This document shows, piece by piece, positions 24,111 through 31,101 of a DNA stretch of 37,962 nucleotides. The DNA is taken from positions 1 to 37,962 of the forward strand of contig JAJXYT010000128.1 of assembly GCA_021780375.1 (NCBI GenBank), written 5' to 3'. Origin of the DNA: a bacterium (GTDB taxonomy: Bacteria > Verrucomicrobiota > Verrucomicrobiia > Limisphaerales > UBA11358). Every line of letters starts with the position of its first letter. The stretch's first letter is position 1. The notes under the pieces were generated by a model. That model did not search any database. It saw only the letters and a list, made by a program, of their open reading frames with translations, and was not told the DNA's origin. The translations under genes were made by a program, and so were the position numbers.

Positions 24111-25016
24111 ATGATTCCCCGCGAGATTCTCAAAAAAATCCGGCAGATCGAGCTGCGCACGAACCGGCTCGTGACCGAGACGCTTGCGGGCCAGTACCAC
24201 AGCGTCTTCAAGGGCCAGGGCATGAATTTCGACGAGGTGCGCGAATACCAGCCCGGCGACGACGTGCGCGCGATTGACTGGAACGTCACCGCGCGGATGA
24301 ATCATCCGTTCATCAAGAAGTTCGTCGAGGAACGCGAACTGACGGTGATGCTGGTGGTGGACTTGAGCGGCTCGGGTCTCTTCGGGTCGCGCGAGCAATC
24401 CAAACGCGAACTGGCCGCCGAAATTGCGTCCGTGCTCGCCTTTTCCGCCATCCGCAACAATGACAAGGTCGGCCTGCTGCTGTTTACCGACGACGTGGAA
24501 AAGTTCATTCCGCCGCGAAAGGGCCGCGGCCATGTGTTGCGCGTCATCCGGGAGGTTTTGTATTTCGAGCCGAAACGGCGTGGGACAGATCTGGTGCAGG
24601 CGCTCGAATTCATGGGCCAGGTACTGCCGCACAAGGCCATTGTGGTGGTGATATCGGACTTTATCTCGCCCGACGGCAGTGTTTTGACGCCGCCGACGCA
24701 AACCGCCTTGCGTGTCGCCAACCGCCGTCACGACGTCGTAGCCGTGCACGTGACGGACCGTTACGAGCTGGAGTTGCCCGCGCTGGGCCGGTTGATTCTG
24801 GAAGACGCTGAAACCGGCGAGATTGTCGAGCTCAATTCCGCTCACGCCGCCAGCCGCGACGCCTTCGCGTTGCGTCAGGAAAAACAATACGCCGAGGTCG
24901 CACGGCAACTGCGGTCGTCGGGCATTGACGCCATTCAATTGCGCACGGACGAACCGTATGCGGCGGCGCTGGGGCGGTTCTTCGAAGCGCGGGAGAAGCG
25001 GAGGTTGCGAGGATGA
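24111..25016 (+). CDS. DUF58-family VWA-like protein
   Basis: This 301-residue protein has the hallmark DUF58 block EYQPGDDVRAIDWNVTAR (about 44-61). A VWA-like core follows with VVDLSGSG (a MIDAS-type DxSxS, about 79-87), KVGLLLFTDDVE and VVVISDFISP. There is no membrane segment, so it is probably cytoplasmic or peripheral. DUF58 proteins pair with MoxR ATPases and are thought to help assemble or activate partner complexes. The neighbours (moxR before, VWA genes after) support that role. Confidence 0.9.
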   Translation: MIPREILKKIRQIELRTNRLVTETLAGQYHSVFKGQGMNFDEVREYQPGDDVRAIDWNVTARMNHPFIKKFVEERELTVMLVVDLSGSGLFGSREQSKRELAAEIASVLAFSAIRNNDKVGLLLFTDDVEKFIPPRKGRGHVLRVIREVLYFEPKRRGTDLVQALEFMGQVLPHKAIVVVISDFISPDGSVLTPPTQTALRVANRRHDVVAVHVTDRYELELPALGRLILEDAETGEIVELNSAHAASRDAFALRQEKQYAEVARQLRSSGIDAIQLRTDEPYAAALGRFFEAREKRRLRG

Positions 25017-25041
25017 AGGTAATGAGCGTGACCACTGACTT

Positions 25042-25647
25042 ATGATCACGAACCAACCGGCCCCAGCCCCGCAGGACATCCGCGACATCAAGCCGCCGGT
25101 GCCGATCCCGAACGTCTGGGAATGGGTCTGGTGGGCGCTGGGCCTGTTGGCGGTTCTGGCGATTTTGTATCTGGCCTGGCGATACTGGCAAAAGCGGCGT
25201 TCGCAAATTCCGGTGGAACCGCCGGTGCCGGCGCCTCTTCGCGCGAAACAGAAATTGGAGGAAGCACTCGCCCTGATCACGCAGCCCAAACCGTTTTGCA
25301 TTCTGGTTTCCGATACGATTCGTGCTTATCTCGAAGAGCAATTTGATTTTCGCGCCCCGGAACGCACCACCGATGAATTTCTGCGGGAACTAAGCACAAC
25401 GGATTTGCTGGCGCCGGAACAAAAGGACAGCCTCGGCCAATTTCTGGAGAGCTGCGACCTCGTGAAATTCGCCAGATACGAACCGGGCGAGCCGGAACTG
25501 CGGGAGTTGCACCATTCGGCGGTCCAACTGGTCGAAGAAACGGAGCCGAAAGACACATTAAATTCTGAATCAGGACTTTCGAATTATGGATCGGAAAGGC
25601 CGCCGGAGCCTGCCGAACCGGGACAAATCGTAAAGCGAAAATCGTAA
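25042..25647 (+). CDS. DUF4381-like membrane protein of the Bat operon
   Basis: This 201-residue protein has a Pro-rich N-terminus (DIKPPVPIPNVWEW), one membrane helix (about 28-46, WALGLLAVLAILYLAW) and a basic stop-transfer segment. A cytoplasmic helical domain follows (KQKLEEALALI, VSDTIRAYLEEQFDFRAPERTTDEFLREL, LGQFLESCDLVKFARYEP). This arrangement matches the DUF4381 family found between DUF58 and VWA genes in such operons. The final residues (GQIVKRKS) and the stop codon come from an AAATCGTAAAGC-type phrase repeat, so the native C-terminus may have been longer. Confidence 0.8.
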   Translation: MITNQPAPAPQDIRDIKPPVPIPNVWEWVWWALGLLAVLAILYLAWRYWQKRRSQIPVEPPVPAPLRAKQKLEEALALITQPKPFCILVSDTIRAYLEEQFDFRAPERTTDEFLRELSTTDLLAPEQKDSLGQFLESCDLVKFARYEPGEPELRELHHSAVQLVEETEPKDTLNSESGLSNYGSERPPEPAEPGQIVKRKS

Positions 25648-25656
25648 ATCACAAAT
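25624..25656. repeat. Phrase-type repeat at the DUF4381/batA junction
   Basis: AAATCGTAAAGCG, AAAATCGTAAATC and ACAAATG are reworded copies of one unit. They code the last residues of the upstream gene, supply its stop and lead into the next ATG. Confidence 0.6.
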
Positions 25657-26659
25657 GCAGTTTGCCCATCCCTATCTTTTGCTGTTGTTGTTGCTGCTGC
25701 CGCTGCTGGCGTGGTTGAAGGGGCGGCGCGGTTCGCCGCCGGCATTCCTTTATTCGTCGGTGCGGCTGGTGGAAGGGTTGACCCGCGTGCGCCGGTCGCG
25801 GACGGGTGCGTTTCTGGCGGCGTTGCGCTGGCTGGTGCTGGCGCTCTTCGTCATCGCGCTGGCGCAACCGCGTTTGATGAAAAGCCGGACGACGGTCAAA
25901 GCCAGCGGCATTGACATCATGGTGGCGCTCGACATGTCCGGCAGCATGGTCTCGGAGGATTTCGTCGTGGATGGCCGGCGCGTCAATCGTTTCAACATGG
26001 CGCGTTCCATTCTGGAAAGCTTCATTGACCAGCGGCCCGACGATCGCATCGGACTGGTCCTGTTCGCCGCGCAGGCGTACATCGGCACGCCCTTGACGCT
26101 GGATCACGATTTTCTGATCGAAGATTTGAACCGGTTGAGCATCGGCGCCATCAATCCCAACGCGACGGCCATCGGCGACGGCTTGACCACGGCGCTCAAC
26201 CAACTGCGCGGCGTACCGGCCAAGAGCAAAATCGTCATTCTCATGACCGACGGCCAGAACAATGCGGGCAATATTGACCCGCTCACGGCGGCGCAGGCGG
26301 CGCGGGCCCTGGGCGTGAAGGTCTATACCATCGGCGTCAGCAAGAACGGCATCGCGCCGATGCCGGTCGGCAAAAATCCCTTCACGGGTGAAACCATTTA
26401 TCAGAATGAACCGGTGGACGTGGATGAGACCACGCTGAAACAAATCGCGCAGATCACCGGCGGGAAGTACTACCGGGCCGACACGGCGGAACGGTTTCAG
26501 CAGATCTACGCCGAAATCAACAAGCTCGAAAAAACGGAGGAAGTCATCAACAAATTCACGGAATACCGGGAATTGTTTCCGTGGTTCGTGGCGTGCGGCC
26601 TCGGGTTGCTGATCCTGGAAATCACGCTGGGCGAGACCGTATTCAGGAAATTGCCATGA
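25655..26659 (+). CDS. batA: BatA-type VWA membrane protein
   Basis: This 334-residue protein has two N-terminal hydrophobic helices (about 5-21 and 54-71). A VWA domain follows with a complete MIDAS: DMSGS at 93-97, a Thr in the PNATAIGDGL loop, and MTDGQNN. A C-terminal membrane helix (FPWFVACGLGLLILEITLG) anchors it again. The VWA domain binds a divalent metal and partner proteins, probably on the periplasmic side. The metal-site residues are all present, unlike in degenerate VWA paralogues. The start lies 8 bases after the DUF4381 stop. Confidence 0.9.
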   Translation: MQFAHPYLLLLLLLLPLLAWLKGRRGSPPAFLYSSVRLVEGLTRVRRSRTGAFLAALRWLVLALFVIALAQPRLMKSRTTVKASGIDIMVALDMSGSMVSEDFVVDGRRVNRFNMARSILESFIDQRPDDRIGLVLFAAQAYIGTPLTLDHDFLIEDLNRLSIGAINPNATAIGDGLTTALNQLRGVPAKSKIVILMTDGQNNAGNIDPLTAAQAARALGVKVYTIGVSKNGIAPMPVGKNPFTGETIYQNEPVDVDETTLKQIAQITGGKYYRADTAERFQQIYAEINKLEKTEEVINKFTEYRELFPWFVACGLGLLILEITLGETVFRKLP

Positions 26660-26726
26660 AATTGACGATTGACGATTTACCCGCCTGCGCTGCGCTGCGG
26701 CGCGGCCGGCGATTTACGATCTGAAG
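26655..26726. repeat. Phrase-type repeat between batA and batB
   Basis: AATTGACGATTGACGATTTAC is broken by a GC-rich word (CTGCGCTGCGCTGCGGCGCG, itself partly tandem). It then resumes as GGCGATTTACGATCTGAAG just before the ATG at 26727. Confidence 0.6.
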
Positions 26727-28403
26727 ATGCAATTTGCTGCTCCACATTGGCTCTGGCTGCTGCTGGTGATTCCGCCGGCGCTGGGACTGTTTTTCTGGTG
26801 GGCGTCGCGGACGCGGCAACGGTTGCTGACGCAATTCATTCAGATGCGGTTGTTGTTTGCGCTGACCGTTGGGGTTTCCCCGGCCCGCCGCAAGATGCGG
26901 TTCGGTGGTTTGATCTTGTCCGTGGCGCTGCTGCTGGTGGCGCTGGCGCGGCCACAGTACGGATTCGATCTGCAAAAGATTGAACGGCGCGGCCTGGACA
27001 TCGTGGTGGCGATTGACACGTCCAAAAGCATGCTGGCCGAGGACATTGCGCCCGACCGGCTCGAACGCGCCAAACTCGCCGCGCTGGATTTGATGCAGCG
27101 GGCGAAAACGGACCGGCTCGGCCTGGTGGCGTTTGCCGGTGACGCCTTTCTGGAATGCCCGCTGACGTTCGACAACACGGCCTTTCAACAATGTGTGCAG
27201 AATTTGAACGTAAACACCCTGCCCCTCGGCGGCACGTCCCTGGCCGCCGCCATCCAGACCGCGCAAGCGGCATTCAAAGAAGGCAATCACTTCAAGGTAT
27301 TGGTGCTGTTTACGGATGGCGAGGACAACGTCAATTCCGGCGAGGCGCTTGCCGCCGCGCAGGCGGCGGCCAAGACGGGTTTGAAGATCTTCACCATCGG
27401 CATTGGCACGGCGGAAGGCGCCCTGTTGCGGATAACCGACGCGAACGGCAATTCGGATTATATCCGGGACCCGGATGGCAACGTGGTGAAATCGCATTTA
27501 GACGAAGCGCTGCTCCGGCAAATTGCCGCCGCCACGGGAGGTTTTTATCTGCCGTTGCGGGGAGCGAACACGATGAAAATACTCTACGACCGCGGCCTGG
27601 CCCCGTTGCCGAAATCGGAAGGTGAAGAACGGCTCGTGCGCCGTTATCACGAGCAGTACCAGTGGCCGTTGGCGCTGGCCGCGCTGTTGTTGCTCGCGGA
27701 AATGTTTTTGCCGGAACGAAAAAAGCCCGCCGGCCAGAGTTCACCGGCCAAAGCCGCAGCCCCGGCCGTGGCGGTGCTCGTTGGAGTATTGTGGCTGCCC
27801 ACGGTCACGAACGGTTCGCCGTCGTCAGCGTTGCGCGAATACAACGCCGGTAACTACACAAACGCCTTGCAGGAATTTGAGCGGCTGGCCCAAAGCCGCA
27901 CGAACGATCTGCGGCTGGTCTTCAACGCGGGTGCCGCGGCGTATCGCGCCACCAATTACGACGCGGCGCTGAACGATTTCCAGAGGGCAACCTTGTCGCC
28001 GGATTTGAAGCTGCAGGAGATGGCGTTTTACAATCTGGGTAATACACTCTATCGCCTCGGTGAATCAAAGTTTGAGCCGGACACGGAAGGCTTGAACGCG
28101 ATCCAGACGCGCTGGCAGGAGGCGCTCAAGAGTTATGAGCACGCCGCGGAATTGAACGCCAACGACGCGGACGTTGCCTACAATCTGGCGTTCGTGAAGC
28201 AACAGATTGGTTTGATTGCCCGGCTGCGCGAAGTGATGCGCCGGGCCAAGCTGGCGGCCGACGACGCGGTCCGGCGCAATGAATATCACCGCGCCTTGGA
28301 AATCATGGAAAGCTTGAACAATCCGATTGCGGCCAAAAAATTCCAGGATTACACCAAGAAACTGAAGAACATTGATGCGATTGTCACTCCTCCTCAGCGT
28401 TAG
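26727..28403 (+). CDS. batB: BatB-type VWA protein fused to a TPR region
   Basis: This 558-residue protein has N-terminal membrane helices at about 8-25 and 59-74. A VWA domain follows with MIDAS residues DTSKS (97-101), the Thr of LPLGGTSLA and FTDGEDN. Further helices lie near 313-328 and 345-360, and then TPR-like repeats to about 520 (REYNAGNYTNALQEFERLA, AFYNLGNTLYRLGESKF, ADVAYNLAFVKQQI). In many Bat operons the VWA and TPR parts are separate genes (BatB and BatC); here they are one protein. The 3' end overlaps the next gene by 29 bases. Confidence 0.88.
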   Translation: MQFAAPHWLWLLLVIPPALGLFFWWASRTRQRLLTQFIQMRLLFALTVGVSPARRKMRFGGLILSVALLLVALARPQYGFDLQKIERRGLDIVVAIDTSKSMLAEDIAPDRLERAKLAALDLMQRAKTDRLGLVAFAGDAFLECPLTFDNTAFQQCVQNLNVNTLPLGGTSLAAAIQTAQAAFKEGNHFKVLVLFTDGEDNVNSGEALAAAQAAAKTGLKIFTIGIGTAEGALLRITDANGNSDYIRDPDGNVVKSHLDEALLRQIAAATGGFYLPLRGANTMKILYDRGLAPLPKSEGEERLVRRYHEQYQWPLALAALLLLAEMFLPERKKPAGQSSPAKAAAPAVAVLVGVLWLPTVTNGSPSSALREYNAGNYTNALQEFERLAQSRTNDLRLVFNAGAAAYRATNYDAALNDFQRATLSPDLKLQEMAFYNLGNTLYRLGESKFEPDTEGLNAIQTRWQEALKSYEHAAELNANDADVAYNLAFVKQQIGLIARLREVMRRAKLAADDAVRRNEYHRALEIMESLNNPIAAKKFQDYTKKLKNIDAIVTPPQR

Positions 28404-28977
28404 CCTGCTGTTGCCGGTCTGGCAAACAGCCCGCGCCCAATCCGCCGATGATTTTTTCAACAGCGGCGCGCACGCCTATATTTCCAACAACATCCCCCAG
28501 GCGCTGGCATCGGTGGAAACCGGCTTGAAACAGTATCCGGCGGATGAGAAGTTGAAAAAACTGTATGAGTTGTTGAAGCAGCAGAGCCAGCAACAATCGC
28601 AAAACAACCGGTCGCAACAAAATCAGAACCAGCAATCGCAGCAGAATCAATCGCAACCAAAGCAATCGCAGAACAACCAGCAGAATCAGCAATCTGCGCA
28701 ACCAAATTCGCAGTCGCAAAACCAGAACCAACAGAACCCGTCCGGCCAGCAAAACGCCAGGCCGCAGAATCAGCAGCCACCTCCGGCTGCGGGCGGGAAA
28801 CCAGGCGGCGAAAAGCAGGGGAATCAGAACCAAGCGGGCCAGCCATTGTCGGCCGGACAAATGACGCCGGCAGCGGCGAAGCGATTGTTGGACGCCCAGA
28901 AAGGCGATGAACAGTTCCTCCAACTGAAACCGCCAACCCCGCCGCCCCGGGATCAACGCCCCATCAAAGACTGGTGA
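28375..28977 (+). CDS. BatC-like TPR protein with Gln/Asn-rich low-complexity region
   Basis: This 200-residue protein has a signal peptide (about 1-21, ending ARAQS), then one TPR-like helix pair (DDFFNSGAHAYISNNIPQALASVETGL). A stretch from about residue 67 to 135 is composed almost only of Gln, Asn and Ser. The C-terminus (AAAKRLLDAQKGDEQFL to KDW) fits the conserved tail of Bat-operon TPR proteins. The low-complexity part is prion-like in composition, coded by mixed CAA/CAG and AAC/AAT codons, so it is not a simple triplet expansion. It overlaps batB by 29 bases, which suggests coupled translation. The ATG at 28375 is chosen over the TTG just before it. Confidence 0.8.
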   Translation: MRLSLLLSVSLLLPVWQTARAQSADDFFNSGAHAYISNNIPQALASVETGLKQYPADEKLKKLYELLKQQSQQQSQNNRSQQNQNQQSQQNQSQPKQSQNNQQNQQSAQPNSQSQNQNQQNPSGQQNARPQNQQPPPAAGGKPGGEKQGNQNQAGQPLSAGQMTPAAAKRLLDAQKGDEQFLQLKPPTPPPRDQRPIKDW

Positions 28978-29215: not shown

Positions 29216-29325
29216 GTGCCGGCGGCGGCGATCGTCGCGGTCGCGAAACGGGAGGCGCAAATGCGGGTGGATGATTTGGCCAGGGGCCGGATGCCGCTCG
29301 AGGGGGAAGTCCATAATCATCATTG
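29216..29325 (+). CDS. Possible short frame or gene remnant
   Basis: From GTG at 29216 the frame reads about 36 residues to TGA at 29325. The composition is protein-like in part (AIVAVAKREAQMRVDDLAR). An internal ATG at 29260 has a good GGGAGG ribosome site. A TAG lies four codons before the GTG. It could be a small protein, the tail of a decayed gene, or chance. I recognise no family. Confidence 0.2.
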
Positions 29326-29331
29326 ACAGGT

Positions 29332-29348
29332 GTAATCACTGCGGTTAC
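29332..29348. promoter_or_regulatory. Operator candidate over the Rrf2 promoter
   Basis: The imperfect palindrome GTAATCACTGCGGTTAC starts 3 bases after a perfect TTGACA (29323-29328) and ends 16 bases before the Rrf2 ATG. It has the same 17-base GTAA...GTTAC spacing as the site at 29830..29846, which fits autoregulation. Confidence 0.45.
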
Positions 29349-29364
29349 TTATTAATCGCAGGTT

Positions 29365-29805
29365 ATGAGAACCAGTTGTCGTTTTGGCATGGCGGTTCAC
29401 GTGCTGGCCGTCCTCGCTTACAAGGAGGGCGACCGGGTCACGTCCGCGTTTCTGGCCGGCAGTGTCAACACCAACCCCGTCATCATTCGGCGGCTGCTGT
29501 TGACCCTGCAACGGGCCAAACTGGTGGACACGTGCAAAGGAGCCGGCTCCGGTTCCCGCCTGAACCGCTCTCCTGGCCGCATTAATCTAGCTGAAATATA
29601 CCGGGCGGTTGAAGAAGCCGAACCGTTCGCCACGCCCGCGCGCAAGCCCAATACCGCCTGTCCGGTAGGCCATTGTATTCGCAAGGAGTTGGACCGGATT
29701 TTTGAGTCGGCGCAGAAGGCCATGGAGCGCGACCTGGAAAAGACGAGCCTGGCGGATGTGATCAACGCGGTAAAGGCCTCCTGCGCTGCCAAACAAGCCG
29801 TTTGA
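29365..29805 (+). CDS. Rrf2-family transcriptional regulator
   Basis: This 146-residue protein has an N-terminal winged helix-turn-helix of Rrf2 type: GMAVHVLAVLAYKEG, VTSAFLAGSVNTNPVIIRRLLLTLQRAKLV with the recognition helix, and a wing near GAGSGSRL. A dimerisation helix follows, with INLAEIYRAVE and CPVGHCIRKELDRIF. Two cysteines (NTACPVGHC) lie where some Rrf2 members sense redox state or bind a metal cluster. Only two are close together, so an iron-sulphur cluster is not assured. It is most like the YwnA branch. Palindromes with shared spacing lie on both sides of the gene. Confidence 0.88.
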   Translation: MRTSCRFGMAVHVLAVLAYKEGDRVTSAFLAGSVNTNPVIIRRLLLTLQRAKLVDTCKGAGSGSRLNRSPGRINLAEIYRAVEEAEPFATPARKPNTACPVGHCIRKELDRIFESAQKAMERDLEKTSLADVINAVKASCAAKQAV

Positions 29806-29827
29806 CATCCTCTTTTTTTGAACGATT

Positions 29828-29848
29828 ATGTAACAGTAGTTGTTACAT
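29828..29848. promoter_or_regulatory. Strong palindromic operator candidate before the sigma-factor gene
   Basis: ATGTAACA and TGTTACAT are perfectly inverted around a 5-base spacer (GTAGT), 23 bases after the Rrf2 stop. The inner GTAA...GTTAC spacing equals that of 29332..29348. It is probably the Rrf2 protein's site controlling the downstream genes. Confidence 0.6.
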
Positions 29849-29870: not shown

Positions 29871-29930
29871 ATGAAAAGGAACAGGACGAACCAACGGCAA
29901 GCCTGGCCGCGCGCCCGGCCGGCGTTTTGA
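29871..29930 (+). CDS. Possible 19-residue leader peptide
   Basis: ATG at 29871 follows a strong purine ribosome site (AGGACAGGAAGCG). It codes MKRNRTNQRQ and a Pro/Arg-rich tail ending in PAF. Its TGA falls in the loop of the hairpin at 29915..29943. It lies between the operator and the sigma-factor gene. The placement suits a regulatory leader, but an accidental frame cannot be excluded. Confidence 0.3.
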   Translation: MKRNRTNQRQAWPRARPAF

Positions 29931-29980: not shown

Positions 29981-30061
29981 ATGAAACCGACGATTGAAAT
30001 CAACGAAGCCAATTCTGCAAGGGCTGGGGATCAAAGCGCAAGCACAAGGAGAAACAGATGA
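29981..30061 (+). CDS. Possible 26-residue upstream frame coupled to the sigma factor
   Basis: ATG at 29981 opens MKPTIEINEANSARAG and ends STRRNR, with TGA overlapping the sigma-factor ATG as ATGA. The sigma gene's own ribosome site (AAGGAG) lies inside this frame, so translation through it could tune sigma synthesis. There is no homology that I recognise. Confidence 0.3.
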   Translation: MKPTIEINEANSARAGDQSASTRRNR

Positions 30062-31101
30062 AGACAACATTTAAGCGAACCCATCGGCGTGGGACAACGC
30101 GGCCTGCGTCACGCGGTCTCCGGGCGATCGTGCCGCCGCTGCCGCCGCGGCTGGCCGGCGACCCGGTGCTGTCGAAAGCGGCCATGCTTCCCCAGCCGGC
30201 GCAACCGGCGCGGGAATGGATGGCGGCGGAGCCGGCGTCAACCGATTTGCCGCACGGCGACGTGCTCCAGCTTTATCTCCGTGAAATCGGCCAGGTCAAG
30301 TTGCTCACGCCGCAGGAGGAAATCGTGCTGGGGAAACGGATTCGGCGGGGTGACAAGCGGGCGCGGGAACAAATGATCAAGGCCAACCTGCGACTGGTGG
30401 TGAAGATTGCCCATGGCTATGAAGGCATGGGCCTGCCGCTGCTGGACCTCATCAATGAAGGCAACATCGGTCTGATGAAAGGGGTCGAACGTTTCGACCC
30501 CCGGAAAGGCGCCAAGCTTTCCACTTATGCTTCATGGTGGATCAAGCAGAGCATCAAACGCGCGCTGGCCAATCAGGGGAAGACCATCCGTCTGCCCGTG
30601 CACGTGGTGGATAAAGTGGCCCATATCCGCCGGGCCGAGGTGAAGTTGCGCGTAGCCTTCGACCGTGATCCGACCGACGAAGAACTGGCGCATGAACTGG
30701 ACCTCGATCCCCGGCGCATACGGCAGTATCGCCAGGCCGCCCGGGCGCCGGTTTCGCTCGACGCTCCGATGGGTGACGACACGTCGGAACGCGTTTCGGA
30801 AACGGTGGCGGACCCCAATGCCGCGGCGCCTTTTGACCGGCTCGTTCAGGAAACCGACACCGAGTTGGTGCGGGAAATTCTGGGCACACTGGATCAGCGT
30901 GAAAACAAGATTCTCGCCATGCGTTTTGGATTGAAGGACGGGACGCAGAGAACCCTGGAAGAAGTCGGCGCGCATTTGGGAGTAACGCGCGAACGCATCC
31001 GGCAGATTCAGGATCAGGCGCTGAAGAAATTGCGGGCCAAGATGGAGGAGCGGGACCGGCCGGCCACGGAAGAGAACGCTGCCCTGGCGGTTGCCGTGTA
31101 A
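30058..31101 (+). CDS. RNA polymerase sigma-70 factor, RpoD/SigA-like
   Basis: This 347-residue protein has a strong AAGGAG ribosome site 6 bases before the ATG. After a basic, Pro-rich N-terminus of ~65 residues without region 1.1, it shows region 1.2 (DVLQLYLREIGQVKLLTPQEE), region 2 (ANLRLVVKIAHGYEGMGLPLLDLINEGN, SWWIKQSIKRAL), region 3 (IRLPVHVVDK, RDPTDEELA) and region 4 (TLEEVGAHLGVTRERIRQIQ). Region 2.4/4.2 residues are those of primary or group-2 factors, so it should read standard -10/-35 promoters. The lack of 1.1 and the position behind an Rrf2 operator suggest an alternative factor rather than the main one. Confidence 0.9.
   Translation: MKTTFKRTHRRGTTRPASRGLRAIVPPLPPRLAGDPVLSKAAMLPQPAQPAREWMAAEPASTDLPHGDVLQLYLREIGQVKLLTPQEEIVLGKRIRRGDKRAREQMIKANLRLVVKIAHGYEGMGLPLLDLINEGNIGLMKGVERFDPRKGAKLSTYASWWIKQSIKRALANQGKTIRLPVHVVDKVAHIRRAEVKLRVAFDRDPTDEELAHELDLDPRRIRQYRQAARAPVSLDAPMGDDTSERVSETVADPNAAAPFDRLVQETDTELVREILGTLDQRENKILAMRFGLKDGTQRTLEEVGAHLGVTRERIRQIQDQALKKLRAKMEERDRPATEENAALAVAV

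Follow-up and report, generated by a model that had tools for sequence, protein, structure and literature searches.

The Rrf2-family gene and the accessory sigma-factor gene downstream of it probably form a local, autoregulated stress switch, in which the Rrf2 protein acts on two operators and thereby on the operon that holds the sigma gene; we give this reading a probability of roughly 0.78. The window (the whole 37,962-nt stretch of DNA analysed) carries one operator on each side of the Rrf2 gene. In the proposed mechanism an Rrf2 dimer would bind TGTAA-N9-TTACA in the spacer of its own promoter and at the start of a second promoter, and in the resting cell would keep both promoters repressed. 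Modification of Cys99 by a quinone, another electrophile or a strong oxidant, a signal carried over from the streptococcal relative SifR, would then release the repressor and permit transcription of the downstream operon. In relatives the predicted output comprises an accessory RpoD-family sigma factor together with thioredoxin and a small protein. In the window sigma alone would be the direct output, and it would take part of the RNA polymerase to a wider gene set. That Rrf2 controls itself and the downstream sigma factor had been proposed in a first-pass annotation of this DNA, and the proposal gains comparative support from the SifR/HypR-type operator, its conservation on both sides of the gene and the presence of sigma in 12 loci.

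Operators and proposed promoters of the rrf2 locus

Both candidate sites of the first-pass annotation lie where it had placed them, either side of the Rrf2 gene, with GTAATCACTGCGGTTAC at 29332-29348 and ATGTAACAGTAGTTGTTACAT at 29828-29848 (Table 1). The similar ends it had pointed to are borne out, as GTAA-N8-GTTAC is exact at both sites and nowhere else in the window (8 matches with at most one mismatch versus 1.85 expected, a number reached in 0 of 100 shuffles), although the 19-nt TGTAA-N9-TTACA is the better motif. The downstream site, described as a perfect palindrome, is perfect in its 8-bp arms, counted with one flanking base added per side, but not in its 5-nt centre, and the pattern suggested for a genome search, GTAAC-N7-GTTAC, misses the upstream site. 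Both sites correspond to the operator published for SifR/HypR-type Rrf2 proteins: SifR of S. pneumoniae binds TGTAA-N9-TTACA, which was traced from the HypR motif TGTAA-x9-TTACA (PMC9218516).

Table 1. Positions of the regulatory sites, genes and gene remnants of the rrf2-sigma locus in the window
Feature	Position	Strand	Description
Proposed rrf2 promoter	29323..29351	+	TTGACA 29323-29328, 17-nt spacer, TACTTA 29346-29351; inferred
Operator 1	29331..29349	.	TGTAATCACTGCGGTTACT; occupies rrf2 promoter spacer; one mismatch to TGTAA-N9-TTACA; conserved in orthologues
rrf2 gene	29365..29805	+	146 aa; YwnA/SifR-type Rrf2 repressor; Cys99 of CPVG the only invariant cysteine
Proposed second promoter	29802..29829	+	TTGACA-N16-GATTAT; overlaps rrf2 stop codon; 10/12 consensus matches
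Operator 2	29829..29847	.	TGTAACAGTAGTTGTTACA; exact TGTAA-N9-TTACA; position conserved in relatives
Small-protein gene scar	29871..29930	+	MKRNRTNQRQAWPRARPAF; aligned with intact G022 gene
Thioredoxin gene scar	29981..30061	+	MKPTIEINEANSARAGDQSASTRRNR; TGA overlaps sigma ATG; aligned with intact G022 and G024 thioredoxin genes
Sigma gene	30058..31101	+	Accessory RpoD-family factor, 347 aa; AGGAG ribosome-binding site upstream

The 19-nt motif is highly specific for this locus. Its exact form has one copy in the 4.01 Mb genome, which is operator 2, and with at most one mismatch it is found at 35 places genome-wide (34 besides operator 2, operator 1 among them), a density at which ~0.0009 sites are expected per 100 bp upstream of a gene. 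In 11 genomes that carry an orthologue, every copy of the strict form TGTAAY-N7-RTTACA is at this locus: ten genomes have a single copy and one has two. We also counted the motif (at most one mismatch) at 87 YwnA-type Rrf2 loci, taken mostly from a GTDB scan across many phyla and including some near relatives, so that the counts are not independent. Upstream copies are present at 69 of these loci and downstream copies at 52, with 46 having both. The best of 29 control motifs with permuted half-sites reach 2 upstream, 5 downstream and 1 on both sides at these loci, and spacings other than 9 come nowhere near the N9 count. The contrast between motif and controls is very large despite the non-independence of the loci, and a chance origin of the two sites is ruled out by their conservation in relatives. 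As the TGTAA-N9-TTACA rule holds at most sampled YwnA-type Rrf2 genes across many phyla, it offers a simple means of target prediction. In the genome searched for a regulon, two matches besides the locus were read in context and neither was retained as a further target, one (C118:69705) sitting within a coding frame and the other (C108:11085) in an ambiguous, probably coding region.

The positions of the sites relative to the proposed promoters suit a repressor. TTGACA is conserved in 14 aligned rrf2 upstream regions and stands two bases ahead of operator 1, which takes up the 17-nt spacer and reaches into the proposed –10, a weak hexamer picked by its spacing. The second promoter is conserved in most relatives, and its last base (29829) is the first base of operator 2, which adjoins this –10 and spans the likely transcription start. 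From this geometry and the analogy to SifR we infer that Rrf2 represses, rather than activates, both promoters.

Operator 2 can also form an 8-bp stem and follows the rrf2 stop codon and a T-run, as would be expected if it were an RNA hairpin (a terminator or attenuator) ending rrf2, with operator 1 a chance resemblance. In the aligned sequences, however, the outer five positions are fully paired and the inner arm positions are paired in 25–58% of sequences, a pattern that is operator-like and unlike a stem, and on these unpaired inner arms we reject the hairpin. A T-run is absent after the site, the scan calls no terminator there, and the frequent occurrence of the motif upstream of rrf2 genes at the sampled loci likewise makes a hairpin exceedingly improbable.

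Class and probable signal of the Rrf2 protein

By its fold, its CPV cysteine and its operator we class the Rrf2 protein as a YwnA/SifR-type monothiol repressor. It scores 103 bits against Pfam PF02082, and among solved structures its closest relative is YwnA of B. subtilis (PDB 1xd7, 98 bits over 131 residues). Within the CPVGHC motif Cys99 is invariant across 18 aligned homologues; Cys103 varies and is absent in two of them (L011 and L016). In SifR quinones modify the one reactive cysteine, which lies in a CPV motif, and the DNA is released; the known targets are genes for a catechol dioxygenase, for quinone and ferric reductases, and others related to them (PMC9218516). The window protein shares the monothiol class, the CPV cysteine and the 19-bp operator with SifR (Streptococcus pneumoniae) and YwnA (Bacillus subtilis) but differs from them in its adjacent target, an operon with a sigma gene, and in having no second exact operator in the genome. 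HypR of Staphylococcus aureus is alike in family and operator, yet it senses hypochlorite through two widely spaced cysteines, C33 and C99 (as cited in PMC9218516), and the window protein scores 54.6 bits with the HypR equivalog model (NCBIfam NF041852) against a cut-off of 180. A quinone- or oxidant-sensing repressor is the probable identity suggested by the protein sequence.

The first-pass annotation had left the sensor as redox or metal type. The thiol/electrophile side of this fits the single invariant cysteine; the metal or Fe-S side does not. If the protein were of the IscR/NsrR/RirA kind and reported iron or nitric oxide to sigma, its membership of PF02082, the superfamily it shares with these regulators, and its weak NCBIfam matches to IscR and RirA, far below cut-off, would be accounted for, and a true NsrR-like three-cysteine Rrf2 does adjoin a related sigma gene in G022:C101. 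However, the three conserved cysteine ligands of that type were not found among the 18 homologues, which have one invariant Cys and in two cases lack Cys103; the best structural relative, YwnA, belongs to the monothiol class (PMC9218516), and the operator is that of SifR/HypR and differs from those of the Fe-S regulators. Fe-S or metal sensing, rejected on the cysteine pattern, is accordingly very unlikely.

A second Rrf2 clade, 35–40% identical and from the same genus or order (L046-L052), has an altered operator, TGTTAC-N7-GTAACA, flanking its gene on both sides, and a recognition helix reading NTSxSFVRR instead of NTNPVVIRR, which looks like a natural change of specificity. The rrf2 neighbour in this clade is an SDR gene, followed in L046 by thioredoxin, HtrA and sigma.

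The downstream operon and its probable erosion in the window

In relatives (Limisphaerales/Verrucomicrobia subdivision 3) operator 2 is followed by the small-protein gene, the thioredoxin gene, sometimes a gene for an HtrA protease or an SDR, and sigma. Twelve Limisphaerales loci have a sigma gene after the operator (the window, L033-L039, L080, L210, L211 and L219), and in all 12 the site downstream of rrf2 is exact and the upstream one has no more than one mismatch. The sigma gene at these loci usually comes behind those for the small protein and thioredoxin. Sigma is not an obligatory target, as some orthologues head operons without it: a lysine-2,3-aminomutase-like gene takes its place behind the operator in L041-L044 and L084, the operon in L042-L044 and L084 consisting of htrA and this gene. 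Outside the phylum, an Acidobacteria locus (L147, gp4) has a similar Rrf2 with operators on both sides and HtrA and thioredoxin genes 469-1961 after the rrf2 start.

The small protein has 100–115 aa, no Pfam or NCBIfam match, and the motif NEAEALAWQTxYPHLVFPxLAxEKV. Its family occurs in 85 of 146 genomes of the order, some of the 85 being weak matches, and its gene often comes directly after that of an Rrf2 or TetR repressor.

Only 210 bp separate operator 2 from the sigma ATG in the window, and they hold the scars of both the small-protein and the thioredoxin gene, each with its start and end retained and its middle deleted. Sigma thus comes right after the operator here because the leading genes are gone, and by the alignments it is what survives of a longer ancestral redox operon and so was not the only ancestral target. 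The scars may be an assembly fault rather than real decay. With two broken genes and a 210-bp gap the locus could also be decaying as a whole, and control by Rrf2 might then be limited to its own gene and the former operon of thioredoxin and small protein, leaving sigma as a passenger that is expressed from elsewhere or functionless. The two broken genes between operator 2 and sigma, and the relatives whose target operon is without sigma, are what such a history would leave. However, the sigma frame is intact and 83–90% identical to the G022 and G024 copies, operator 2 and its promoter are undamaged, and a consensus scan between operator 2 and the sigma start found no other promoter-like site and no terminator-like site. 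Thioredoxin is absent also in G045, G031 and G030, and there too sigma is retained. We therefore consider a passenger sigma unlikely and keep the switch, in which Rrf2 would govern the sigma gene from operator 2, as the preferred reading.

Accessory sigma factors and their cassettes

The sigma protein has Pfam regions 1.2, 2, 3 and 4, all above cut-off, and by sequence is an accessory (group-2-like) RpoD-family factor, additional to the primary RpoD. The genome encodes four RpoD-family factors: besides the one in the window there are two in long frames, of 634 and 592 aa, and a short factor on C149. Almost all genomes of the order have relatives of the C149 factor; the tree, in which several forks are unresolved, places the window factor outside the clade of this ubiquitous type and among other accessory factors. 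Its patchy occurrence in relatives suggests that it is not essential for growth. The window factor resembles group-2-like (RpoD/RpoS-type) sigmas in its RpoD-type regions 1.2 to 4 and short N-terminus and differs from them in lying outside the ubiquitous Limisphaerales clade and in being the final gene of operons that have a local repressor of their own.

Related accessory sigmas elsewhere stand in cassettes with HlyD and RND efflux genes, sometimes thioredoxin, and a PIG3-like quinone reductase, and several of these cassettes are headed by TetR. The small protein often follows the TetR gene and in one case is itself followed by thioredoxin and an N-ethylmaleimide-reductase-like (NemA-like) enzyme. 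These partners would fit a role in electrophile or quinone stress. HlyD-RND pump-(thioredoxin)-accessory sigma cassettes are seen in L192, L193, L195/L202 and L196/L203, several of them opening with TetR and the small protein, and some having a quinone-reductase-like gene after them. In L194 (G022:C101, 5513-7176) the NsrR-like three-cysteine Rrf2 gene is divergent from another accessory sigma gene.

It is about an even chance that the accessory RpoD-family sigmas of the Limisphaerales, with the small protein and thioredoxin, are a portable stress output placed under different local repressors (SifR-type Rrf2, the TGTTAC-N7-GTAACA variant Rrf2, NsrR-like Rrf2 or TetR), such that each sensor of chemical stress would raise its own sigma. 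Rrf2 thiol sensors are known to turn on detoxification genes directly. If an Rrf2 protein does switch an RpoD-family sigma here, a local chemical sensor would be coupled to a wider transcriptional response. The regulator and its operator are of a known kind; as far as we searched, what is new is that an accessory RpoD-family sigma is coupled to them, and that such coupling recurs under different local repressors. A search of the open-licence literature found nothing relevant on an Rrf2 protein governing a sigma factor in such a context, and no regulatory work of this kind in Verrucomicrobia subdivision 3.

On the other side of the locus, directly upstream of rrf2, window positions 24111-28977 hold genes resembling a Bat (aerotolerance-type) operon, which we named by eye as a DUF58-like gene, genes for two von Willebrand-like proteins and a TPR gene, and part of this gene set also precedes rrf2 in two of the sigma-bearing loci (L033 and L034).
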